64,000 bases of DNA. It comes from Actinoplanes sp. L3-i22 (GTDB lineage: Bacteria; Actinomycetota; Actinomycetes; Mycobacteriales; Micromonosporaceae). The notes below the pieces were generated by a model, which saw only the letters and a list, made by a program, of their open reading frames with translations, did not search any database and was not told the origin of the DNA. Shown piece by piece: positions 42,170-53,023 of the stretch. How positions within the stretch are numbered: the first letter of the stretch is position 1; every line of letters begins with the position of its first letter. The stretch spans positions 6,890,501 through 6,954,500 of the forward strand of contig NZ_AP024745.1 of NCBI RefSeq assembly GCF_019704555.1, given 5' to 3'. The position numbers and the translations under genes were made by a program.

Positions 42170-42180
42170 CCGTTTCTCAT

Positions 42181-42296
42181 CACGCCGCCCCCGGTTCCGC
42201 CGGGGGCAGCCTCACAACTCACGCCGCCCTCGGATCCGCCGGGGGCGGCGTCACAACTCACGCCGCCCCCGGATCCGCCGGGGGCGGCCTCACAGC
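42181..42296. repeat. Three 39-bp tandem repeats, each a strong hairpin
   Basis: Units start at 42181, 42220 and 42259. Each contains an inverted repeat of the form GCCGCCCCCGG/CCGGGGGCGGC around atccg or close variants. They separate convergent genes and end inside the stop of the next one, so they likely act as bidirectional terminators. Confidence 0.85.
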
Positions 42297-42736: not shown

Positions 42737-42789
42737 GCCGCACATTCTGCGACCCCGCGCCGGCGGGTGGCATCCCCGCACATAACAGA

Positions 42790-42913
42790 TCAAGATCAAA
42801 TTCTTCATTGCCCCGGCTGCGGCCAATAACTGATCGTCGCTCCCGCGGGGACCCTTGCGGGCTTCGCAGGGCCGCGAGGCGGCCAAGAACGCGAAACCCG
42901 CAAGGGCGATGTC
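42790..42913 (-). repeat. Dispersed structured repeat, copy 1
   Basis: A 124-nt segment whose reverse complement aligns end to end with 52463-52584. It contains 41 identical bases in a row (42816-42856 here). On the minus strand it folds into an outer stem CCTTGCGGGTTTCGC/GCGAAGCCCGCAAGG and an inner hairpin GGCCGC-CTC-GCGGCC. It lies 29 bp from the left end of the IS3 element and upstream of the hypothetical gene. No convincing protein is shared by both copies. See findings. Confidence 0.8.
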
Positions 42914-42994
42914 CGTGGGTGGGCGCGCTTGCAAAGTGGGCCTGCCCCGTTTTGACGGACATCCAAGATCAGGGGACCTGGGGTCTCCGGGAGG

Positions 42995-43318
42995 ATGTCC
43001 AGCATCATGGAGAGCGTGGGAAAGAAGCGATCGAGGCCGCGGCGGGCGTTCACGCCGGAGTTCAAGGCCGAGATTGTCGAGTTGTGTCAGCGTGGTGACC
43101 GCATGGTCGGGCAGGTGGCCAGGGATTTCGATCTGGCTGAGACCGCGGTGCGGTCCTGGGTCAAGCAGGCCGAACTCGACACCGGGACTCGCTCAGACGG
43201 GCTGACCAGCGACGAACGAGCCGAGCTCGCCCAGCTACGGGCGGAGAACCGCCGGCTGCAGCAGGACGTGGACATCCTGAAGCGGGCGACGGCTTTCTTC
43301 GCGAGGGAGACCCGGTGA
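42995..43318 (+). CDS. IS3 transposase OrfA (helix-turn-helix)
   Basis: A 107-residue DNA-binding protein: RRAFTPEFKAEIVELCQRGDRMVGQVARDFDLAETAVRSWVKQAE is the IS3 helix-turn-helix and ELAQLRAENRRLQQDVDILKRATAFFARE is the leucine zipper. The stop overlaps the orfB start (GTGA), with orfB in the -1 frame, as for production of an OrfAB fusion by frameshifting. Start ATG at 42995 is close to its gggagg box; ATG 43007 is also possible. Confidence 0.9.
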   Translation: MSSIMESVGKKRSRPRRAFTPEFKAEIVELCQRGDRMVGQVARDFDLAETAVRSWVKQAELDTGTRSDGLTSDERAELAQLRAENRRLQQDVDILKRATAFFARETR

Positions 43319-44214
43319 ACGTGTATCCGTTCATCGGCGCGGAGCAGGCCGGCAAGCACAACGTCAAACGTGCCTGCGAACTGCTCGAGGTCTCCCGGTC
43401 CGCCTACTACCAGCACGCCCGCGGCGAGCAGTCCACCCGGGACCGGGCCGACGCCCGGCTGACCGAGCAGATCATCGCGGTGCACGCGGCGTCGAACGGC
43501 ACCTACGGCGCGCCGCGTATCCACGCCGAACTGGCCGCGGCCGGACTGCGGCACGGCCGTAAACGCATCGCCCGCCGCATGCGGGCCGCCGGAGTCCGGG
43601 GTAAGAGCCCGCGCCGCTGGAAGACCACCACGATCCCGGACCCGAACGCCGGTGCCCGCCCGGACCTGGTCGACCGCGACTTCACCGTCGACCCGACGGC
43701 GGTCGATACCCGCTGGTGCGGCGACATCACCTACATCAACACGTGGGAAGGCTGGCTGTACCTGGCCACCGTCATCGACCTGGCGTCACGCCGCGTCGTG
43801 GGCTGGGCGGTGGCCGACCATCTCAAGACCGACCTGGTCGACGCCGCGCTGACCGACGCCTTGGCCCGCCGCCGGCCCGCCGACGGACTGGTCTTTCACT
43901 CCGATCGCGGCTGTCAATACACCAGCGCGCAGCACGCCTGCCTCGCGCAGCGGCACGGCGTACGCCTGAGCGTGGGTCGGCGCGGTCAGTGCTGGGACAA
44001 TGCGGTCGCCGAGTCGTTCTTCGCCACGATCAAGACCGAGTTGATCCACCGACAGACGTGGCCTACCCACAAGGCCGCCCGTCAGGCGATATTCGAGTAC
44101 GTCGAAGGCTGGTACAACACCCGCCGCCGACACTCCAGCCTCGGTTACCTCAGCCCCGCCGCCTACGAAGGCGGCACCGTCATCAACCTGCTACCTACTC
44201 TCAAGGTAGCTTGA
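43315..44214 (+). CDS. IS3 transposase OrfB (DDE integrase)
   Basis: A 299-residue DDE transposase. The HTH_21 region is NGTYGAPRIHAELAAAGLRHGRKRIARRMRAAGVRG; catalytic Asp in TRWCGDITYI, second Asp in VFHSDRGCQY and Glu in CWDNAVAESFFATIKTEL (35 residues after the second Asp), followed by YVEGWYNTRRRHSSLGYLSP. All three acidic residues are present, so the enzyme should be active once fused to OrfA. Confidence 0.93.
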   Translation: MNVYPFIGAEQAGKHNVKRACELLEVSRSAYYQHARGEQSTRDRADARLTEQIIAVHAASNGTYGAPRIHAELAAAGLRHGRKRIARRMRAAGVRGKSPRRWKTTTIPDPNAGARPDLVDRDFTVDPTAVDTRWCGDITYINTWEGWLYLATVIDLASRRVVGWAVADHLKTDLVDAALTDALARRRPADGLVFHSDRGCQYTSAQHACLAQRHGVRLSVGRRGQCWDNAVAESFFATIKTELIHRQTWPTHKAARQAIFEYVEGWYNTRRRHSSLGYLSPAAYEGGTVINLLPTLKVA

Positions 44215-44291
44215 AGATCAACTCATCGACCCTGTCCGTCGAAACGGGTCAAGCCCAAAGACCCTAAACCCGTGAATGCCGGCCCATCGGG

Positions 44292-44317
44292 TTATCCACA
44301 CCAGAGGGTTGTCCACA
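44292..44317 (+). promoter_or_regulatory. Two DnaA-box-like 9-mers
   Basis: TTATCCACA at 44292-44300 and TTGTCCACA at 44309-44317, same orientation, 8 bp apart. Both match the DnaA box consensus exactly. There is no dnaA or dnaN gene here, so this is not oriC; DnaA titration or local regulation is possible. Confidence 0.5.
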
Positions 44318-44693
44318 GGCCGTCTACATGATCAAGGCCGGCTTCGATAGCGTGATTTCGAGGGCGGGGGAACCCCCGGTGGGCGGGCCCCTGCCTGCGA
44401 CACGACGGCCCGGCCCGGCCCGGGACAACCTGCCCCGGCCCACGAGGCGGCGAGCCCTGGCCCGCGACACAGCCCTCACCACCAGCCGAGACCGCGCGGG
44501 GCGCGCGGGGCTGGGTGGGAGAGCTGGCGCGGGCCCGGGCACGGCGCGCGGGCCCGGGCACGACTCGCGAGCACGGGCACGGGCACGGGCACGACGCACG
44601 GGCCCGGGCACGACTCGCGAGCACGGGCACGACTCGCGAGCACGGCGCACGGGCTCGGGCACGACGCACGACGCACGACGCACGACGCACGAG
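44318..44693. other. Non-coding GC-rich stretch with degenerate cacgggcacg repeats
   Basis: No gene is supported. From about 44535 the sequence is built from cgagcacgggcacgg- and cacgacg-type units that grade into the regular 13-bp array to the right. Open frames exist in all phases only because the repeat lacks stops. Confidence 0.75.
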
Positions 44694-44953
44694 CACGGCG
44701 CGCGGACACGACGCGCGGGCACGACGCACGAGCACGGCGCGCGGACACGGCGCGCGGACACGGCGCGCGGACACGGCGCGCGGACACGGCGCGCGGACAC
44801 GGCGCGCGGACACGGCGCGCGGACACGGCGCGCGGACACGGCGCGCGGACACGGCGCGCGGACACGGCGCGCGGACACGGCGCGCGGACACGGCGCGCGG
44901 ACACGGCGCGCGGACACGGCGCGCGGACACGGCGCGCGGGCACGGCGCGCGGG
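44694..44953. repeat. 13-bp tandem repeat array, 20 units
   Basis: Twenty uninterrupted units of cacggcgcgcgga or one-to-three base variants occupy exactly 260 bp; most central units are identical. Because 13 is not divisible by three, all frames translate to the same 13-residue pattern, which explains long spurious frames. It ends 19 bp from the GMC oxidoreductase stop. Confidence 0.95.
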
Positions 44954-44972
44954 CTGCCGGGGTGGGGCTGGG

Positions 44973-46889
44973 CTATGGGGTGGCTTGGGTGATGTGTTCG
45001 GCGGTTCGGGAGGCCAGGGCCATGATGGTGATCATCGGGTTGGTGCCGGACGAGGTGGGGAACGCCGAACCGTCGCCGATCCAGACGCCCGGGGTGTCGT
45101 GCAGCTCGCCACGCGGGTCGGCGACGCTGGTGGACGGGTCGGTGCCCATCCGGCAGCTGCCCATCTGGTGGGCGGAGAAGAGCACCGCACCGCCCGCGCG
45201 CAGCGGAATCTCCCGGGCCTGCGCGACGAAGCCGTCGAAGTCCTCCCCGAAGGTCCACGACGGCACGCCCCGCGCGAGGAACCGGATCCCCCGGGCGCCC
45301 GCGGCGTGGTGCAGACGGATCTGGGCCTCGATCGCGCGCTGACTGTTCCGTACGTCCAAATCGTCTTTTATCTCGTAAAAGGCCGAACCATCCGAGCCGA
45401 CCCGCCCGTGCCCGCGATCCCGCACCAACCCGATGAACGATCCGTAGTTACGGTAGTCCGCCATCGCCTGCTTGTGCTCGGCCCCGGTGGTGAACGGCAC
45501 GGCCGACGCCCCCAGCCCGGTCGTGTACTGCACGCTCTCCATCAGGAAGCCGTAGCCGTCCTCGACCGCCGCGAACTCGTTGACGAGCCCGGCCTGCGGC
45601 GGCCCCCACCAGCCCCGCATGTCGGTCCCGTAGTCACCGAGCGTCACCGTGCACGGATGCAGCCGCAGGTGGTCCCCGACCGCCGGCCCGCCGATCCTGG
45701 AGCGCAGCAGCACGCCCGGCGAGTCCAGCGCCCCGGCCGCCACCACGACGACCGGCGCCCGCACCGTGACCGCGAAGCTCCGCGAACCGTCCTCACTGGT
45801 CCACCCGCCCACGACTCCGGCAGCCCGACCGTTCTCGGTCACGATCCGTTCTACGGAGCACCCGTCGATCACCCGCGCGCCGTGCGACACGACCGCCGGC
45901 TCCAGGTAGACCTTGAGCGTCGACTGCTTCGCCCCGGACGGATCCCCGAACCCGAGGCCGCCGGCGACCAGCACGTCGTGCCGCTTCTCGTCCCAGTTGC
46001 GGAACGCCGTCGCGAACGACCAGCCGAGCGCCTCCGCGCCCCGGCTCATCGCCTCGTGCGCCCGGTTGAACTGCGAACACTGACCGGTCACGGACAGCTC
46101 GCGCCACACCGCGTCCAGGTGCCGGTCGAACTCCGGGGTGGCCAGGTCGGTGAGCCCGTGCTCGTGCGCCCACTCCCGGCGGACCCGGTCGGTGGTCCGG
46201 ATGCAGTTCGTCCAGTTGATCACGGTGCCGCCGCCGAGCCCGGAGCCGGTCATCAGCGTGATGTTCTGGTCGGCGGTCGGCGTCGGGCCGCCCCGCCGGT
46301 ACGACTGCTGGTACGCGGCGAGTTCCAACTGCCGGAAGTCACTCTCACTGCGATATCGGCCCGCCTCCAGGACGACGACGCGCGCGCCGGTGGCCGCGAG
46401 TCGCCCGGCGATCAGGCCGCCGCCCGCGCCGGATCCGATCACCACGACGTCCGCGTCGAGGTCCAGGTCGGCGGTCGGGCGCAGCGGGGTGATCGGCCGT
46501 TTCTCCGGGACCGGTGGGCGGGCGGCCGGGCCGGGGTAGCCGAGGCGGCTCCAGTTCGGATTGCGGCCGGTGACGTCCGGCATGCCGTACGTCAGCAGCA
46601 GCACCAGGCTGGTCAGCGGGGTGACCGCCGGCCCGGCCGCGCCCAGGATCTGCTCCCGTTGCGCCTGGGCCGCGGTCAGGAAGCCCTGGGCGGCCAGCGC
46701 GTCCAGCAGCAGGCCGACCGATTCCTGCTGGTCGGCGGGCATGGCCGCGATGGTCGCGAGCACGCCCAGGTCGGCGCCGACGTCGGTGGCGCGGCGCGCC
46801 CAGAAGCCGTCGGCGTCATCGGGATGGTCGATGGGGGGAACCACGGTGTCGCAGAGCAGCCGCAACACCTGAGTCCGGTCCGGGTTCAC
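44973..46889 (-). CDS. GMC-family FAD-dependent oxidoreductase
   Basis: A 638-residue flavoprotein. The N-terminal 130 residues resemble the gluconate-dehydrogenase-subunit-3/long-chain alcohol oxidase leader. VVVIGSGAGGGLIAGRLAATGARVVVLEAG (about 146-175) is the FAD Rossmann motif, GSGLGGGTVINWTNCIRT the GMC signature 1, VVVAAGALDSPGVLLRS signature 2, and the active-site region FSAHQMGSCRMG with GVWIGDGSAFPTSSGTNPM close the chain. It oxidises an alcohol or sterol; substrate unknown. GTG start at 46889, divergent from a small membrane protein. Confidence 0.9.
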   Translation of the reverse strand: MNPDRTQVLRLLCDTVVPPIDHPDDADGFWARRATDVGADLGVLATIAAMPADQQESVGLLLDALAAQGFLTAAQAQREQILGAAGPAVTPLTSLVLLLTYGMPDVTGRNPNWSRLGYPGPAARPPVPEKRPITPLRPTADLDLDADVVVIGSGAGGGLIAGRLAATGARVVVLEAGRYRSESDFRQLELAAYQQSYRRGGPTPTADQNITLMTGSGLGGGTVINWTNCIRTTDRVRREWAHEHGLTDLATPEFDRHLDAVWRELSVTGQCSQFNRAHEAMSRGAEALGWSFATAFRNWDEKRHDVLVAGGLGFGDPSGAKQSTLKVYLEPAVVSHGARVIDGCSVERIVTENGRAAGVVGGWTSEDGSRSFAVTVRAPVVVVAAGALDSPGVLLRSRIGGPAVGDHLRLHPCTVTLGDYGTDMRGWWGPPQAGLVNEFAAVEDGYGFLMESVQYTTGLGASAVPFTTGAEHKQAMADYRNYGSFIGLVRDRGHGRVGSDGSAFYEIKDDLDVRNSQRAIEAQIRLHHAAGARGIRFLARGVPSWTFGEDFDGFVAQAREIPLRAGGAVLFSAHQMGSCRMGTDPSTSVADPRGELHDTPGVWIGDGSAFPTSSGTNPMITIMALASRTAEHITQATP

Positions 46890-47033
46890 GAGACGGGCCT
46901 CCTTCGTCGCTGGAGAAGGGCTTCGTGGAGAAGGGCCAATGCATCAATGTACGACGATGAGCGGCACCGTGAACCCGGCGCGACCCCCCGCGGTACACCC
47001 GGATACCGAACTTTCGTCACCAAGGGGGAATCC

Positions 47034-47576
47034 ATGCAACCCGTCGCCGAGGAACCGTCCGCCGACGTGACCGCGCTCGCCCTGTCCCGGGGCCTGGGTC
47101 ACCGCGTCGACAGCCGCAAGCTCGCCAATCCGGTGACCCGGGGCGCCGGCCTGCTGCTGGCCGCGGCCGCCTCGATCGGCCTGCTGGTCCTGCTCAGCTA
47201 TCTCGGTCAGGACAGCGACGGCTTCTTCTGGGAGGTGCTGCACGTCATCGCGCTGGTCTTCTGCTTCAGCGCGGTCTTCCTGATCGTCAGCGGCCTGCGG
47301 GTGTTCATCGTCGGCGCCCAGTCGTTCCACGTCTTCGCCAACGGGTTCGTGCACCGCCGCAACGGGCGGGTGCAGGCCTACACCTGGCCCGAGGTGACCG
47401 AGCTGAAGCCGGTTCTGCAGACCCGTGGCGAGGACCGCGGCCGGCTGCTGAGCTACGCGCTCGTCCCGCGCCAGGCCAAGCCGATCGCGATCCCGGTCGC
47501 CGTCGTCGACGGCCGCGACCCGTTCCTCGACAACCTGATGGGCCTGCTGCAGCACCACGGCATCCCGGTCAGCTGA
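47034..47576 (+). CDS. Two-helix membrane protein of unknown function
   Basis: A 180-residue protein: a short N-terminal tail, two helices (GAGLLLAAAASIGLLVLLSYL and VLHVIALVFCFSAVFLIVSGL), then a cytosolic domain with FHVFANGFVHRRNGRVQAYTWPEVTEL that resembles bacterial PH-type folds of membrane proteins. aagggggaa precedes ATG at 47034. Earlier in-frame codons belong to the repeat region and the antisense of the GMC gene. Confidence 0.7.
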   Translation: MQPVAEEPSADVTALALSRGLGHRVDSRKLANPVTRGAGLLLAAAASIGLLVLLSYLGQDSDGFFWEVLHVIALVFCFSAVFLIVSGLRVFIVGAQSFHVFANGFVHRRNGRVQAYTWPEVTELKPVLQTRGEDRGRLLSYALVPRQAKPIAIPVAVVDGRDPFLDNLMGLLQHHGIPVS

Positions 47577-47700
47577 CCTCCGCCGTGGTCCGGGTCCGCC
47601 GCCCTCTCCCGGCCGCGAATTTTCCGGCGGTACGGCGGTAGCCCCGCCCCGCTCCCCGGAAAGCCGTCCCGGGCCCCGGGCCCGCGCATAGGGTCGAGCC

Positions 47701-49278
47701 GTGGGGGTCATCGCGTCGCTGTACGAGGACGAGTACCGGCCGGAGTTCGGGCACGTCGTGATCCGGGACGCCGGGGACGGCGCCGGGGACGTCCGGGCCG
47801 GTCTGCTCGCGCGGGACGCCGGCGGGCTGGCCGGGACGGTCGCCCGGGCCGGCGCGGGATGGCTGGAGCTGCACGCCGGGGAGGACCGGCAGCGGGTCCG
47901 GATCGAGGCGCACGACCGGGCGCCGGAGCCGGAGAGCGCGGGGTGGCTCGATGTGCTGGAGACGCCGTACCGGAGCCTGACGGGTCTGCTCGGTTTCACG
48001 ACGACCACCGGTGGACCGGCCCGGACCGGGATCGAGCTGGGCGCCGGGCCGGGTGACTATCGCGTGCGGGTGTGCCGCCGACCGGCCGGGGACGAGGGCG
48101 GCCACTGGATCGTCCGGGTGTGGCCGGCGAGCCCGGTGATCCGTCCTCGATGGCTGGTCCGGGCGCCGGACCGGGCCGGCGAGACGTCCGCCTCGGGCCC
48201 GCGCGCGGTGCGGGTCGACGACGACGTGTTCGCGCTGGTGTCCTGGTCGCCCGGCGGGCGGCTGGTGACCACGATCGCGCGGCTCGCCGGCGAGGCGCTG
48301 GTCGAGCCCGGCGTGATCGCGGCGGTGCTGAGCGACGCCGCGGCCGCGAACCTGCGCGTGCAGGGCGATGTCACCGACGCCGCCGCGCCGCTGGAACTGG
48401 TCGGCGTCGACCGGAACCGCCCCGGAGCGCCGGTGGCCCACTCGCTCGAACTGCCGACCGGCGATCCGCCGCGCCTCGGCTACCTGGTCGGCGGCGACAT
48501 CACGCTGCCCCGCAGCGGCGCGCCGGCGGTGATCGGGCGCAGCCCGCTGCCGATCGTCGACGCCATGGTCGAGACCGCGGCCGGGGTGATCGTCCTCGGC
48601 GGGGTGCTCCAGCCGTCCGGCGACCGGGACAACCGGGCCGCGCTGGTCCGGTGGGACGGCGGCGACGTCGAGCTCAGCCCGGACGCGCACGACCTGCAGA
48701 TCAGCCGGGACGGCACGGTGTGCGCGATCTACCAGCCGACGATCGGCGACCTGGTGCTGATCGACCTGCGGGACGGCAGCCGGGAGACGCTGCCGCTCGG
48801 CGCCGGCGACGACGAGCTGCGGATCACCGGGGTCACGGCGGACACCGTCTGGTTCGAGGGGCGCGAGCCGATGCGCTGGTCGGCCGGCGATCCGGCCCCG
48901 GTCCCGGCCGGCGAGCTGCCGCCGACCAGTGGGTGGGACGGCCCGAACACGCCGCGGCATCCGCACTATCCGGCTCGCGGGGCCCGGCGGTCCTGCGGGG
49001 GCAGCGGGCGGCCGGCCGGGCTGTCGATCCAGGATCAGGACGGGTGGCGCCGCCATCAGCTGCCGGCCGGGCTCGGTGACGTGGTGGACCATCGGCTGGC
49101 GCCGCTCTGGGAGGATCCCGGGCACGTGCTGCTCGCGCCCCGGGCGGCCGGCTTCCCGAGTCTGCTGCTCCGCTTCGACGTGGTGGGTGGCGGGTACGAG
49201 ATCGCGGCCGCGGACCTGCCGGCCAACCTGCTGGTCTGGCCCTGGCCGCACCGCCCGGAACGCACCCGCCGCCCCTGA
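47701..49278 (+). CDS. Hypothetical protein, possible beta-propeller (525 residues)
   Basis: Not recognised. No signal peptide or membrane helix. The first 140 residues are beta-rich (DEYRPEFGHVVIRDAGDG, IELGAGPGDYRVRVC). Residues about 280-400 have repeated blocks such as GGDVELSPDAHDLQISRDGTVCAIYQ and LVLIDLRDGSRETLPLG that read like propeller blades. GTG start at 47701 follows a weak ggtcgag box. Coding use is normal for the genome. Confidence 0.65.
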   Translation: MGVIASLYEDEYRPEFGHVVIRDAGDGAGDVRAGLLARDAGGLAGTVARAGAGWLELHAGEDRQRVRIEAHDRAPEPESAGWLDVLETPYRSLTGLLGFTTTTGGPARTGIELGAGPGDYRVRVCRRPAGDEGGHWIVRVWPASPVIRPRWLVRAPDRAGETSASGPRAVRVDDDVFALVSWSPGGRLVTTIARLAGEALVEPGVIAAVLSDAAAANLRVQGDVTDAAAPLELVGVDRNRPGAPVAHSLELPTGDPPRLGYLVGGDITLPRSGAPAVIGRSPLPIVDAMVETAAGVIVLGGVLQPSGDRDNRAALVRWDGGDVELSPDAHDLQISRDGTVCAIYQPTIGDLVLIDLRDGSRETLPLGAGDDELRITGVTADTVWFEGREPMRWSAGDPAPVPAGELPPTSGWDGPNTPRHPHYPARGARRSCGGSGRPAGLSIQDQDGWRRHQLPAGLGDVVDHRLAPLWEDPGHVLLAPRAAGFPSLLLRFDVVGGGYEIAAADLPANLLVWPWPHRPERTRRP

Positions 49279-49337
49279 CCAGCGCCCGAGCCCCGCGCAA
49301 GGCGCAGCGCCAACGGCCGCGGCCGGACCCGTGCGGG

Positions 49338-49901
49338 CTACCCCGGGCGGGTCGCGCCGGCCGGGTTGAGGACGCCGAACAGGAGCAGGTGGATCAGGCG
49401 GGTGGCGAGGTCCCGCTGCCGTTCCTCGGCCGCGATCAGCGTGATCCCGCCGAGCGACATCAGCAGGTCACGCGGGTCCACCCCGGCCTGGAGCGTGCCC
49501 TCCCGGACCCCGGCCCCGAGCAGCCGGCCGATCGCCGCGACGAGCTCGTCGCGGGTCTGCTGCCGGTCCTCCGCCGAGGTCAGCGCCGCCCGCAGCGTCT
49601 CGCCGAGGCCGCGCTTGGTCGCCATGAAGTCCACGAAAAGCTCCATCCAGCGGCGCAGCGCCTCCGCCCCGGGAGCCTCCGCGAGCAGCTCGTCGGCGGC
49701 CGCGCAGGTGCGCTCGATCTCCTGCCGGTAGACCGCCTCGACGAGCGCCTCCCGGGTCGGGAAGCGCCGGTAGACGGTCCCGATCCCGACGCCCGCCTCC
49801 CGGGCGATCGCCTTGAGCGACGCGCCCGTGCCCTCCCGGGCGAACGCGGCGGCGGCGACCGCCAGCAGACGGTCGTGGTTGCTGCGGGCATCCGCGCGCA
49901 T
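49338..49901 (-). CDS. TetR-family repressor of the adjacent SDR gene
   Basis: A 187-residue TetR protein: RLLAVAAAAFAREGTGASLKAIAREAGVGIGTVYRRFPTREALVEAVY is the N-terminal helix-turn-helix, followed by a helical ligand domain with a TetR_C-like end (GVREGTLQAGVDPRDLLMSLGGI). It is divergent from the SDR gene and two matching 22-bp palindromes lie between the starts, so it most likely represses both genes. Confidence 0.9.
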   Translation of the reverse strand: MRADARSNHDRLLAVAAAAFAREGTGASLKAIAREAGVGIGTVYRRFPTREALVEAVYRQEIERTCAAADELLAEAPGAEALRRWMELFVDFMATKRGLGETLRAALTSAEDRQQTRDELVAAIGRLLGAGVREGTLQAGVDPRDLLMSLGGITLIAAEERQRDLATRLIHLLLFGVLNPAGATRPG

Positions 49902-49918
49902 GACGAAGGTCCCCTTGC

Positions 49919-49971
49919 TAAACGGACCGGGGTCCGCTTATCGTCGACGTAAGCGGACCCGGGTCCGCTTA
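49919..49971. promoter_or_regulatory. Twin TetR operators (TAAGCGGACC...)
   Basis: Two 22-bp palindromes at 49919-49940 and 49950-49971, centres 31 bp apart (three helical turns). The right one is perfect around CCCGGG with arms TAAGCGGACC/GGTCCGCTTA; the left differs by a few bases. They fill the divergent TetR-SDR promoter. Confidence 0.8.
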
Positions 49972-49998
49972 GTCACGGTAACACCGAAGGAGCAGCTC

Positions 49999-50901
49999 AT
50001 GGCATTCGGAGCCACCACCACCGCGGCCGAGGTCCTGGCCGGGGTCGACCTGACCGGCCGGCGCGCCGTCGTCACCGGCGGCGCGTCCGGGATCGGGCTG
50101 GAGACCGCGCGGGTCCTCGCCGCCGCGGGCGCCGAGGTGACGATCGGGGTGCGCGACGTCGAGGCCGGGCGCCGCGCCGCCGGCTCGTTCGCGAGCGTCG
50201 GGGCGCTCGACCTGAGCGACCAGGCCTCGGTCGCCCGGTTCGCGGCCGGCTGGGCCGGGCCGTTGCACATCCTGGTCAACAACGCCGGGATCATGGCCAC
50301 CCCGGAGCTGCGGACCGCCGAGGGCTGGGAGATGCAGTTCGCGACGAACCATCTCGGTCACTTCGCGCTCGCGTTCGGGCTGCACGACGCGCTCGCCGCC
50401 GCCGGGGACGCCCGGGTCGTCGCGGTCAGCTCGGTCGGCCACATCAACGGCGACGTCGACTTCGACGACCTTCACTTCCAGCGGCGGCCGTACGACCCGT
50501 GGCAGGCGTACGGACAGTCGAAAACCGCCAACGTCCTGTTCGCGGTGGCGGCGGCCGAGCGCTGGGCGGGCGACGGGATCACGGCGAACGCGCTGAACCC
50601 GGGGCGGATCGCCGGCACGAACCTGAGCCGGCACCTGGCCGTCCCGCCGGCGTCGTTCGACCCGGCCGGGGCCACCGGGGTCTCCGTGAAGGACATTCCG
50701 CAGGGGGCCGCGACCTCGGTGCTGCTGGCCGCGTCACCGCTGGTCGAGGGGGTGACCGGGCGCTACTTCGAGGACTGCCAGGTGGCCGGCCCGCATCAGC
50801 CCGGCATCCGGCGGGGCGTGGCGGCCTACGCCGTGGACCCGGAGCGCGCCGCCCGGCTGTGGGAGGTCTCCACCCGGGCAGTGCGGCCGATCGCCGGCTG
50901 A
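49999..50901 (+). CDS. Short-chain dehydrogenase/reductase
   Basis: A 300-residue SDR. TGGASGIGLETARVLAAAGAEV is the NAD(P) motif TGxxxGxG, NNAGIM the structural motif, active site VAVSSVGH with Tyr and Lys in YGQSKTANVLF (YxxxK) and NPGRIAGT after it. The Arg in IGVRDVEAG suggests NADP use. It resembles retinol/WW-domain-oxidoreductase-like SDRs. aaggag precedes ATG at 49999. Controlled by the divergent TetR. Probably reduces a small ketone or aldehyde inducer. Confidence 0.9.
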   Translation: MAFGATTTAAEVLAGVDLTGRRAVVTGGASGIGLETARVLAAAGAEVTIGVRDVEAGRRAAGSFASVGALDLSDQASVARFAAGWAGPLHILVNNAGIMATPELRTAEGWEMQFATNHLGHFALAFGLHDALAAAGDARVVAVSSVGHINGDVDFDDLHFQRRPYDPWQAYGQSKTANVLFAVAAAERWAGDGITANALNPGRIAGTNLSRHLAVPPASFDPAGATGVSVKDIPQGAATSVLLAASPLVEGVTGRYFEDCQVAGPHQPGIRRGVAAYAVDPERAARLWEVSTRAVRPIAG

Positions 50902-50947
50902 CGCCCACCGAAAGTGGGCCACCCCGCGATTCCGCCGGCTGACGCGC

Positions 50948-51538
50948 TCAGGGACCGGTGGGTCCGGGGGCGGTGCGGAGGCCTGCCAGCAGGACGGTGA
51001 GGTAGCGGCGGGCGGTGGCCGCGCGGTCCGGGGCGGCCGGGTCCTGGTGGACGTTCGCGGCGAACATCACGCCGCACATCAGCGGCAGCATGTCGGCCCG
51101 GGTCACCGTCGGATCGGCGACGCCGGCGGTGTGCGCGCGAGCCAGGATCTGCCCGAACATCCCGATGAGCCGCTGCTTCAGCTCGGTGGTGGCCGGCAGC
51201 GCGTCGACCGGGGCGGCGAACACCGGGGGCAGCGCCGGGTCGGTGAGCTGGGCGTCGACGGCGGCGAACAGGAAGTCGCGCAGGGCGGTCCACGGGTCGT
51301 CGCCGGCCAGGGCCTGCTCGGCGTGCGCGACCAGGGCTTCGAGGCCGGGGGCGGCGACCGTCTCGAGCAGCGCCTCCGGGGTCGGGAAGTGCCGGTAGAC
51401 GGTGGCCACCCCGACGGCGGCGGCCCGCGCGACGTCGTTGAGCTGGATCGGCGTGCCCTCGTCGGCGAGCCGCCGGCCGACGTCGACGATGCGTTGCCAG
51501 TTGCGGGCGGCGTCCTTGCGCAGCGGGGCGGTGGTCAT
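50948..51538 (-). CDS. TetR-family regulator
   Basis: A 196-residue TetR regulator: DAARNWQRIVDVGRRLADEGTPIQLNDVARAAAVGVATVYRHFPTPEALLETV is the DNA-binding domain; the C-terminal part has ADMLPLMCGVMFAANVHQDP and a helical end. ATG at 51538 is chosen, since the longer reading to 51565 would start inside an operator. Divergent from an esterase gene with twin repeats between. Confidence 0.88.
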   Translation of the reverse strand: MTTAPLRKDAARNWQRIVDVGRRLADEGTPIQLNDVARAAAVGVATVYRHFPTPEALLETVAAPGLEALVAHAEQALAGDDPWTALRDFLFAAVDAQLTDPALPPVFAAPVDALPATTELKQRLIGMFGQILARAHTAGVADPTVTRADMLPLMCGVMFAANVHQDPAAPDRAATARRYLTVLLAGLRTAPGPTGP

Positions 51539-51554
51539 GGTCACCAGGATAACC

Positions 51555-51599
51555 GGATAGCTCATCCACTTGTGCTACGTTGAAGTGGATAGCTCATCC
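51555..51599. promoter_or_regulatory. Twin TetR operators (GGATAGCTCATCC)
   Basis: GGATAGCTCATCC occurs at 51555-51567 and again at 51587-51599, exactly 32 bp apart. Each is an inverted repeat GGAT-n5-ATCC. They lie in the TetR-esterase divergent promoter. Confidence 0.75.
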
Positions 51600-51620
51600 G
51601 TTTCACTTCTGGGGGTTACC

Positions 51621-52445
51621 GTGCTGCGTGACAGCGTCGATGTCGACGGCCGGACGCGGACGTTCACCGTGGTCGGCGGGCCGTCGAAGAACCTGGTGCT
51701 GGTCTTCCACGGGTCCCGGCAGACCGGCGCCAAGCACCGGGACTTCACCGGCGGGATCTTCGACTCGCTGCCGGCCGTCGTCGTCTACCTGGACGGCTAC
51801 CGCGGCAACTGGAACGACGCGCGGCGGGAGAGCGGCTTCCCGGCCCGCGTCGAGAACGTCGACGACGTCGCGTTCACCCGGGCGGTCATCGCGAAGCTGC
51901 GGGCCGGCCACGGGATCGATCCGGCGCGGGTGTTCGGGGTCGGGTACTCCAACGGCGGGCAGATGGTGATGCGCCTGGCCCACGAGACGCCGTCGCTCCT
52001 GGCCGGCGGGGCGGTGATCGCCGCGAGCATGCCGGAACCGGACAGCTTCCTGCTGCCGGCCGACGGGTTCACGCCGATGCCGATGCTGCTCGTGCACGGC
52101 ACGAAGGACCCGATCGTGCGGTACGCGGGCGGCGAGATGCCGTGGCTGACGCGGACGGTGTTCCGGGTCGGTGGCCGCAGCCGATCGATGCCGGACACCG
52201 CGGCCTACTTCGCCGAGCACAACGGGATCAGCGCGGCGCCCACGGTCACGCGGTGGCCCGGGACGGCGATCGAGACCACCGAGTACCGGGCGCCGGGCCG
52301 GCCGCCGGTCGCGTTGTACACCGTGCACGGCGGCGGGCACACGATCCCCGGGCCGCGGCGGGCGCCCGCCCTCATCGGCAAGACCAGCCCGGACGTCAAC
52401 ACCGCCGAGCTGATCACCGAGTTCTTCGAGCTGTCCGGTTTTTAG
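51621..52445 (+). CDS. PHB-depolymerase-like (LpqC/feruloyl esterase type) esterase
   Basis: A 274-residue alpha/beta hydrolase. The start has NLVLVFHGSRQTGAKHRDFTGG, the Ser elbow is VFGVGYSNGGQMVMRLA (GYSNG), the Asp is likely in LLVHGTKDPIVRYAGG and the His in HGGGHTIPGP. This is the polyhydroxybutyrate depolymerase/LpqC family, but no signal peptide is seen, so it is cytosolic here. GTG at 51621 follows tgggggt. Controlled by the divergent TetR. Confidence 0.87.
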   Translation: MLRDSVDVDGRTRTFTVVGGPSKNLVLVFHGSRQTGAKHRDFTGGIFDSLPAVVVYLDGYRGNWNDARRESGFPARVENVDDVAFTRAVIAKLRAGHGIDPARVFGVGYSNGGQMVMRLAHETPSLLAGGAVIAASMPEPDSFLLPADGFTPMPMLLVHGTKDPIVRYAGGEMPWLTRTVFRVGGRSRSMPDTAAYFAEHNGISAAPTVTRWPGTAIETTEYRAPGRPPVALYTVHGGGHTIPGPRRAPALIGKTSPDVNTAELITEFFELSGF

Positions 52446-52462
52446 GACCGCAACCACCCGCG

Positions 52463-52584
52463 GACGTCGCCCTGGAGGGTCTCGCGTTCTGGGCGCCCCG
52501 CGCCCTGCGAGACCCGGAAGGGTCCCCGCGGGAGCGACGATCAGTTATTGGCCGCAGCGTGGGAAATGCTGAATTTGATCTTGA
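52463..52584 (+). repeat. Dispersed structured repeat, copy 2
   Basis: A 122-nt segment homologous over its length to the minus-strand segment 42790-42913, with 41 identical bases at 52518-52558. Stems here are GGGTCTCGC/GCGAGACCC and GGGCGC-CCC-GCGCCC. It fills the gap between the convergent esterase and F420-type genes. See findings. Confidence 0.8.
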
Positions 52585-52591
52585 AGGGTTT

Positions 52592-53023
52592 CTAGCTCTC
52601 GACCCAGGGGCCGACGCCGCCGACGCGGGTGACGTGGTAGCGCAGGACGAAGCCCGGGCGTTTCGGCGCGGGGAACTCGCCGGTGGGGTCCACATAGATC
52701 TTGTGGAGGTCGTTGAGCAGGTCCCAGGCCTGGTCGCTCGGCTCGACGGAGGCGGTGGCGTGCAGGATCGCGTGCTCGGCCATGACGACGCCGGGGCGGC
52801 GGGGCGCCTCGAAGGAGAGCACGACCCGGGGATCGCGCTCGGCGTTGCGCACCTTGACGTGGCGGCCGAGGTGGCTGCTGACCACGTCGTCGCCGTCGAG
52901 ACCGATCCAGATCACCGACACCTGGGCGCTGCCGTCGGCGTTGATCGTGGTCAGGTGGGCCAGCGGGCCGGATTCGATCAGGTCACGGAGTGCACTGGGC
53001 AGTGGCACGGGCTCCGAACTCAT
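52592..53023 (-). CDS. PPOX-class F420/FMN-dependent oxidoreductase
   Basis: A 143-residue split-barrel protein: LAHLTTINADGSAQVSVIWIGLDGDDVVSSHLGRHVKVRNAERDPRVVLSFE is the FDOR-B flavin or F420-binding region, and the C terminus RYHVTRVGGVGPW is typical. Actinomycete homologues reduce quinones, biliverdin or xenobiotics with F420H2. It is convergent with the esterase across the structured repeat. Confidence 0.88.
   Translation of the reverse strand: MSSEPVPLPSALRDLIESGPLAHLTTINADGSAQVSVIWIGLDGDDVVSSHLGRHVKVRNAERDPRVVLSFEAPRRPGVVMAEHAILHATASVEPSDQAWDLLNDLHKIYVDPTGEFPAPKRPGFVLRYHVTRVGGVGPWVES

Follow-up and report, generated by a model that had tools for sequence, protein, structure and literature searches.

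A window of 64,000 nucleotides (nt) of the Actinoplanes sp. L3-i22 genome, the whole stretch of DNA analysed here (contig NZ_AP024745.1, positions 6,890,501 to 6,954,500), carries two copies of a structured repeat that is 120-150 nt long with a core of about 120 nt, copy 1 on the − strand and copy 2 on the + strand. Our results show that copies of this element sit at the 3′ ends of genes and that its core covaries; counts of half-changed pairs place selection on one of its strands. We favour, tentatively and with somewhat less than even confidence, the reading that it may be a one-directional RNA 3′-end module, copied and homogenised within genomes. In form it recalls the repetitive extragenic palindromic (REP) sequences and what we take to be named bacterial interspersed mosaic elements (BIME); its function we infer.

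Covariation and the strand under selection

A sequence-only reading of the window had reported a run of 41 identical nt (42816-42856 and 52518-52558), which proved exact when the reverse complement of 42760-42940 was aligned with 52430-52620. The pairing-preserving stem changes that it described are also there, namely a double change from T-A to C-G, another from C-G to G-C and a one-sided change from T.G to T-A, and both copies fold as it proposed (against shuffles, single-sequence folds gave z = -3.98 for copy 1 and z = -2.11 for copy 2). The unit is longer than first noted, with a left block, CCACCC.CGGAC.TCGCCCT, and a right-hand AT tail, GAATTTGATCTTGA, common to both copies.

Further copies are numerous. 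The 18-nt core pattern GACGATCAGTTATTGGCC, with up to two mismatches, matched 145 times in the L3-i22 genome (one contig, 12,014,766 bases) and its reversed control 0 times, which excludes chance. A blast-type search of the same genome gave 237 first-look candidates, and the 40 of these 237 that were scored matched without exception (40/40). We studied 131 of the about 145 copies. Their consensus runs from a T-rich left border, GGGTTCTTTGAAACCGCAACCACCC, through the stem to an almost invariant block, CCCCGCGGGAGCGACGATCAGTTATTGGCCGCAG, whose invariance may partly follow from the copies having been collected by a motif within it, and ends in an AT-rich right tail.

RNAalifold, applied to 34 sequences (6 from L3-i22 and 28 from relatives; locus L066, masked with N, was dropped), gave one long bulged stem followed by a 3-pair hairpin, the core comprising 121 model positions and 24 pairs with an asymmetric bulge. 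Double changes occur at 11 of the 24 pairs in these sequences (83 such cells), with 91.0% of cells paired; in a second set, 64 distinct sequences that the model detected in eight genomes (L3-i22 not among them) and whose alignment is fitted to it, they occur at 15 of the 24 pairs (173 cells), with 90.7% paired. In both sets, none of 500 shuffles reached the observed value on any of the five measures used; with the partner slid by 1-3 columns, pairing fell to 26-50%. The structured core covaries beyond column composition and register. An RNA or single-stranded DNA structure under selection, which the two window copies alone had suggested, is thus supported by strong covariation and by the further copies.

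Pairs that have changed on one side only indicate the working strand. If a palindrome is needed as double-stranded DNA, or on each strand alike, C-to-T and G-to-A changes are equivalent, and G.T and A.C are expected in about equal numbers. On the + strand of the element, however, the ratio of G.U to A.C was 113:0 in 65 copies from eight genomes (a set found by a model that possibly prefers G.U, in which G.U is spread over 12 different pairs and A.C falls at 0 pairs) and 78:1 in the 34 sequences. It was 265:1 in the 131 L3-i22 copies, which were found through a motif outside the stem (134:1 without a pair that is G.U in every copy), and 82:0 in 41 copies of A. cyaneus, found through a 22-nt block touching the outermost pairs only (41:0 without the invariant G.U pair); in other genera it was 21:3, the cells in all of these counts being non-independent events. 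Other mismatches in L3-i22 amounted to 433 cells, mostly at three internal-loop columns and at the pair beside the bulge. As a control, unrelated hairpins of a family that we call Type A gave 36:31 (23 hairpins, L3-i22) and 7:8 (24 hairpins, A. cyaneus), by a fuzzy search that includes a few doubtful hairpins. Since G.U far exceeds A.C in the element, whereas Type A hairpins are balanced, selection, as read from these counts, is acting on the + strand alone, as a single strand. Most simply, that strand would act as RNA. A small mobile hairpin, a regulatory RNA and a 3′ processing element had been the early candidates, and the asymmetry favours RNA.

Type A is itself a second dispersed hairpin family, GGCTGGCGCTCACGGCTGTT...AACAGCCGTGAGCGCCAGCC, with its own version in each genome and with balanced G.U and A.C variants. 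Its sites lie to the left of the element, beside many of the 131 L3-i22 copies and at A. cyaneus loci such as L353, L375 and L377; for one query, the upstream flank matched about 50 others.

The features of the two copies are listed below. R1 is the covariance model used for the searches, and both copies are in its seed.

52448..52567, + strand: structured core of copy 2 (cmsearch with R1, 116.9 bits; covariance model positions 1-121)
52469..52523, + strand: main stem P1 of copy 2, from structure and pair counts
52469-52485 / 52507-52523, + strand: outer arms of P1 in copy 2
52490-52496 / 52500-52506, + strand: inner helix of P1 in copy 2, with an asymmetric bulge between it and the outer arms
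52524..52567, + strand: conserved 3′ block of copy 2, CCCCGCGGGAGCGACGATCAGTTATTGGCCGCAG..., nearly invariant in the 131 L3-i22 copies as collected
52568..52585, + strand: AT-rich period-6 tail of copy 2 (TTTGATCTTGA)
42807..42928, − strand: structured core of copy 1 (cmsearch with R1, 104.9 bits)
42786..42806, − strand: AT-rich tail of copy 1 (GAAGAATTTGATCTTGATCTG)
51570..52445, + strand: left gene of copy 2, alpha/beta hydrolase-like (PF02230), ending 2 nt before the core
52592..53023, − strand: right, convergent gene of copy 2, PNPOx-like (PF01243), with 24 nt from the core to its stop codon
42995..44214, + strand: open reading frames of an IS3-family transposase adjoining copy 1, outside the element (rve and HTH_Tnp_1 domains)

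Within the 3′ block, GGGAGC is mostly kept across the genus. Copy 2 folded by itself shows a closing helix of the CCACCCNCGGA block with CCCCGCGGGAG; the consensus fold lacks it, and we do not claim it. Relatives of other genera are predicted to have a second helix, GGTCCGC/GCGGACC, on which covariation is neutral, most of its pairs being almost constant.

Copy 2 does lie between convergent genes, as had been stated. Copy 1 had been placed 29 bp from an IS3 end: the IS3-family neighbour stands, by its domains, but the position of its end is unconfirmed, a search for inverted repeats in 42850-44400 having given no pair at its ends. The IS3 element looks incidental to the repeat, because at most three other downstream flanks resemble any one flank at nucleotide level (131 copies, about 0.8 kb per side) and the upstream recurrences are short repeat modules. 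Just downstream of the IS3-family frames, window positions 44526-44954 hold a GC-rich tandem array with periods 13 and 39 and matches up to 96%, and at 42180-42294 there is a 39-bp unit repeated 2.9 times (92% matches).

Gene context, tail and distribution

According to gene calls made by a GC-codon heuristic with no curated annotation, which weakens the position counts given here as support for a 3′-end role, the core motif is spanned by a called gene in 0 of 131 copies, and two copies overlap a gene end. In the element's frame, neighbouring genes are arranged +− at 76 copies, −− at 27, ++ at 17 and −+ at 8, with 3 unresolved. Convergent pairs thus flank 76 of 128 copies, whereas among spacers of at least 40 bp the share is 8 of 36 in the window (22%) and 16 of 141 in flanking DNA (11%). 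In 104 copies, the stop of an oncoming right gene follows the right end of the core at a median distance of 32 nt, which includes the tail, and 60 of the 104 lie within 40 nt; right-gene starts within 40 nt of the core numbered 0 of 25. To the left, stops of + genes lie within 40 nt in 23 of 93 cases (median 147). At two loci (L003 and L036) the left reading frame enters the element and terminates in LKP(Q/R)PP(A/S)DVAL. Copies therefore sit at gene 3′ ends with the tail pointing to the stop of the oncoming gene.

The tail has a period of 6. Its lag-6 match is 0.371 in L3-i22 (shuffles 0.252 ± 0.008) and 0.408 in other genomes (shuffles 0.251 ± 0.010). A control stretch at a distance of 300 nt scores 0.351 at lag 6 as well, but with a codon-like period 3 (lag 3, 0.345), whereas the tail reaches only 0.282 at lag 3. 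TTGATC, found 44 times, is the commonest TTGA word in the tails, and a 72-nt array occurs in one relative (L481). Partial tandem duplications of the 3′ half of the element stand just after the tail at L338, L340 and L344 (G034), L321 (G035) and L069.

Other modules adjoin the element. To the left of the copies at L024, L114, L163, L164, L040, L121, L142 and L145 there are two TGTGGATAA-like words, which we take to be DnaA-box-like, set within CCTGTGGATAACCC..CAGTGTGGATAACTCCCACGGG...GGATCTTGGGGTAG; L024 and L114 have both words in exact form, and the other six loci vary in one word or in both. In L043 a third module, ACCGCAACCACCCACGGAACTGAGGCAGCGTCGGTGGCCGTTCCGGG, is complete and in tandem, and parts of it occur in L124 and L137; it starts with the left block of the element, which suggests that different hairpins may have their left end in common.

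Of 100 genomes searched by blastn, 35 match: L3-i22, 33 of its 59 congeners and 1 of 40 genomes of other families (E 7.7e-4). In the genus Actinoplanes as GTDB delimits it, R1 matches 58 of 67 genomes, and it matches weakly in 12 of 287 other genomes of the bacterial family, which we take to be Micromonosporaceae; a pattern scan of genomes gave at least 120 stretches, and only Actinoplanes, Paractinoplanes and Amorphoplanes are among the 80 listed by name. A second model, R2, built from an alignment of other genera, matches 89 of 354 genomes and 16 of 44 genera of the family, and some L3-i22 copies are found by R2 too. In 394 genomes drawn from the class, R2 found only L3-i22 and one marginal match (E 7.7e-4), coding-looking by eye, in a kind of large model search that can miss weak matches. 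No match to the element was found by blastn in plasmid and phage collections. Given how R1 and R2 matches are distributed over genomes, the element is, as far as searched, a superfamily of one bacterial family with its main expansion in Actinoplanes.

Along the L3-i22 chromosome, copies thin out away from coordinate 1 (Kolmogorov-Smirnov p = 3e-7), where the open reading frame that begins there is presumably dnaA, and a 1.55-Mb gap lies at 3.82-5.37 Mb. An orientation bias with respect to the replication strand was unsupported (41 + vs 27 − copies in one half of the chromosome, 30 + vs 33 − in its other half; p = 0.16).

Common sites and homogenisation

One site, 3′ of a gene that we take to be ftsK, is filled in some species and empty in others. 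R1 finds the element there in G000 (L3-i22), G010, G014, G022, G035 and G107, and in G031 the tail is visible before masked sequence, which makes seven filled loci in all. The same two convergent genes are found in eleven relatives without the core motif and with hardly any spacer (projected gap -22 to +13 nt); in G045 about 220 nt of other sequence separate them (weak R1 score of 12.5 bits, E 0.61), and 11 further ftsK loci have a different neighbour gene. On a regional tree of 30 loci, a single clade of eleven contains all seven filled genomes, and G051 is empty although it is nested with G010 at 100/99 support. The unit, tails included, thus seems to appear or disappear as one block. At this one filled/empty site there is no sign of target duplication, and the direct word TTGATCT stands at both ends; no terminal inverted repeat was seen there, and the consensus ends are not inverted repeats by eye. 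At copy 2, the right gene has orthologues in ten relatives without an element match nearby; the left gene is unmatched there, so this is no clean empty site. In G003 and G034 (L276, L277) an unrelated long palindrome, GATGACTTGG...CCAAGTCATCG, stands at the end of ftsK where other species carry the element.

Comparison of the flanks of the 131 copies with all other collected loci, most of which had been chosen for carrying the element so that presence is biased, gave 74 site/locus pairs matching on both flanks, 22 of them at the ftsK site. For 18 of 42 named A. cyaneus loci the site is occupied in L3-i22 too, with flanks 81-96% identical, and in ten aligned common sites the element has the same orientation. 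At the 18 common sites, mean element identity is 0.729, versus 0.721 over all pairs between the two genomes, and on average 52% of the L3-i22 paralogues (range 1-92%) are at least as close as the orthologue. Within-genome mean identity, on the other hand, is 0.896 in L3-i22 and 0.822 in A. cyaneus, and between these two genomes the nearest relative lies in its own genome for 131 of 131 and 41 of 41 copies. These comparisons show that the copies are homogenised within at least some genomes, that is, they indicate concerted evolution, because pairs at common sites are no closer than random between-genome pairs, whereas copies within a genome are much closer. Either copies would be overwritten in place, or the same sites would be refilled independently in the same orientation.

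On the scale of eight genomes the pattern is mixed. The nearest relative is in the same genome for 17 of 17 copies in L3-i22, 9 of 9 in G034, 10 of 11 in G035 and 9 of 11 in G048, and for 3 of 4 in G014, 5 of 8 in G022, 5 of 11 in G010 and 4 of 10 in G051. Three observations weigh against general homogenisation: the eight G022 copies have a mean identity of just 0.71 to one another, copies of G010 resemble those of G035 as closely as they do their own paralogues (0.86 between the two genomes vs 0.87 and 0.86 inside each), and one of the 18 common sites (L117/L405, 0.787) keeps clear orthologue similarity. By the identities of G022, G010 and G035, homogenisation is slow on this scale or uneven.

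Relation to known repeats and candidate roles

The sequence-only reading recognised no named family. Indeed, although the core is a covarying structured RNA candidate as Rfam families are, the window gave no Rfam hit at the gathering score, and in six loci searched up to E 5 none overlapped the element. The repeat was not found described in the open-licence literature accessible to us, including the available text of PMC3733652 and PMC12306157, and the words actinobacteria, actinoplanes, micromonospora and streptomyces are absent from the main text of PMC3733652. The nearest group, as far as that text describes it, is the REP/BIME type. Like REPs, REPINs and BIMEs (GTAG and CGTC superfamilies; PMC3733652), the element is palindromic, extragenic, dispersed in high copy, and placed 3′ of genes and between convergent genes, with a probable RNA role common to both. 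It stands apart by size, apparently by the lack of a fixed tag and, where tested, by transposase. REPs measure 20-40 bp (PMC3733652), whereas the core here reaches about 120 nt; its stem is bulged, it has long conserved blocks that do not pair, and a hexamer tail follows. The word CGTC, a possible counterpart of the unpaired tag of REPs, stands before the stem in 103 of 131 L3-i22 copies, 43 of the 65 copies from eight genomes and 18 of the 34 aligned sequences, other copies carrying GGTC, CGCC, CATC and others at that place; across the genus it is not conserved. The RAYT/TnpA-REP systems likewise have a structured strand in many copies, but the L3-i22 genome has no Y1_Tnp domain match. Enterobacterial RU-1, RU-2 and RU-3 (units of 127, 168 and 103 bp, termed small mobile sequences) and pneumococcal BOX and RUP are likewise small interspersed intergenic repeats; they belong to different hosts and, in the accounts available, are likened by description only. 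Unlike a miniature inverted-repeat transposable element, the unit has no terminal inverted repeats and, at one filled/empty site, no target site duplication.

According to the reading that we favour, the + strand would be transcribed and its hairpin would serve as a one-directional 3′-end module, stopping or processing RNA that arrives from the left before it becomes antisense to the right gene; new copies and sequence updates would be written by a copying process, for which a transposase acting in trans, gene conversion and RNA templating are candidates. A hairpin that terminates or processes + strand RNA would explain the strand asymmetry, the convergent position and the orientation to the oncoming gene, and a 3′-end role fits because copies adjoin stop codons. 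Several observations weigh on the other side. Tandem gene pairs show no sense preference (17 ++ vs 27 −−, p = 0.17), and 8 copies lie between divergent genes. Stem integrity is the same with or without a + gene on the left (p = 0.52), no dependence on the left gene being seen. There is no T run directly after the main stem, that of copy 2 being unflagged as a canonical intrinsic terminator, and a consensus-based scan gives only one weak terminator-like site, 52555-52571 (shuffles mean 0.3). Finally, G.T pairs are tolerated in single-stranded DNA too, so that RNA is favoured but unproven.

This last point bears on a rival that we consider unlikely though still a real contender, in which the repeat is a non-autonomous mobile DNA element without cellular function, its + strand hairpin being recognised as single-stranded DNA in transposition and its 3′-end position reflecting tolerance. 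Hairpins are recognised in this way in the transposition of IS200/IS605 and REP systems. Asymmetry could thus arise from one DNA strand, and the dispersed intergenic copies, presence and absence at an orthologous site and stem integrity independent of gene context all fit such an origin. However, the Y1 transposase (PF01797) is unmatched in L3-i22 by a search that is positive in 5 of 14 control genomes; the flanks of about 0.8 kb of the 131 copies hold short modules and no long recurring stretch as an autonomous partner, at nucleotide level, no protein-level search having been made; sites common to other species are unlike rapid hopping; and the single filled/empty site has neither target duplication nor terminal inverted repeat. 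A bidirectional transcription terminator, or another double-stranded palindrome between convergent genes, would account for the strong convergent-spacer preference and the GC-rich 17-bp stem, but the opposite strand would then need intact pairing too. With 265 G.U to 1 A.C, and the balanced pattern seen instead in the neighbouring Type A hairpin, it is the least probable of the explanations weighed here. Hardly more credible is a multi-copy gene for a trans-acting small RNA with its own promoter: structure is selected on one strand and conserved unpaired blocks flank the stem on both sides, yet a scan for sigma-70-type promoters around copy 2 (52400-52650) found none, the sequence to the left of the core varies, and more than 100 copies at gene 3′ ends would be unusual.

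The tail brings in an RNA-templated route. The selected strand closes with a variable period-6 array, and reverse transcriptase (PF00078) is matched in 42 of 58 element-positive versus 3 of 9 element-negative genomes (p = 0.05, relatedness uncorrected), as might be expected of a retroposon resembling short interspersed nuclear elements (SINEs) whose TTGATC tail marks reverse transcriptase priming. G010 and G022, however, have at least 10 element matches each and no PF00078 match, and 16 of the 58 positive genomes lack a reverse transcriptase match; we judge such a retroposon improbable. Reverse transcriptase seems not to be a required partner, and its association with the element is weak. A bacterial SINE-like system in the wider sense, in which a structured RNA with a hexanucleotide tail would be turned back into DNA and would enter or overwrite existing copies, is a long shot that would account together for one-strand selection, the period-6 tail and the homogenisation of about 140 copies at partly common positions.

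Whatever the route, concerted evolution of dispersed 120-nt copies at common sites calls for a copying process. Counting G.U against A.C in dispersed copies is a simple test for the working strand that needs sequence only: interspersed bacterial palindromes are often discussed as DNA, and here the strand count separates the element from a neighbouring hairpin family in which the two strands are alike. If the 3′-end role of the preferred reading is true, the element would help to explain how antisense transcription is limited in dense, high-GC genomes with closely packed convergent genes.

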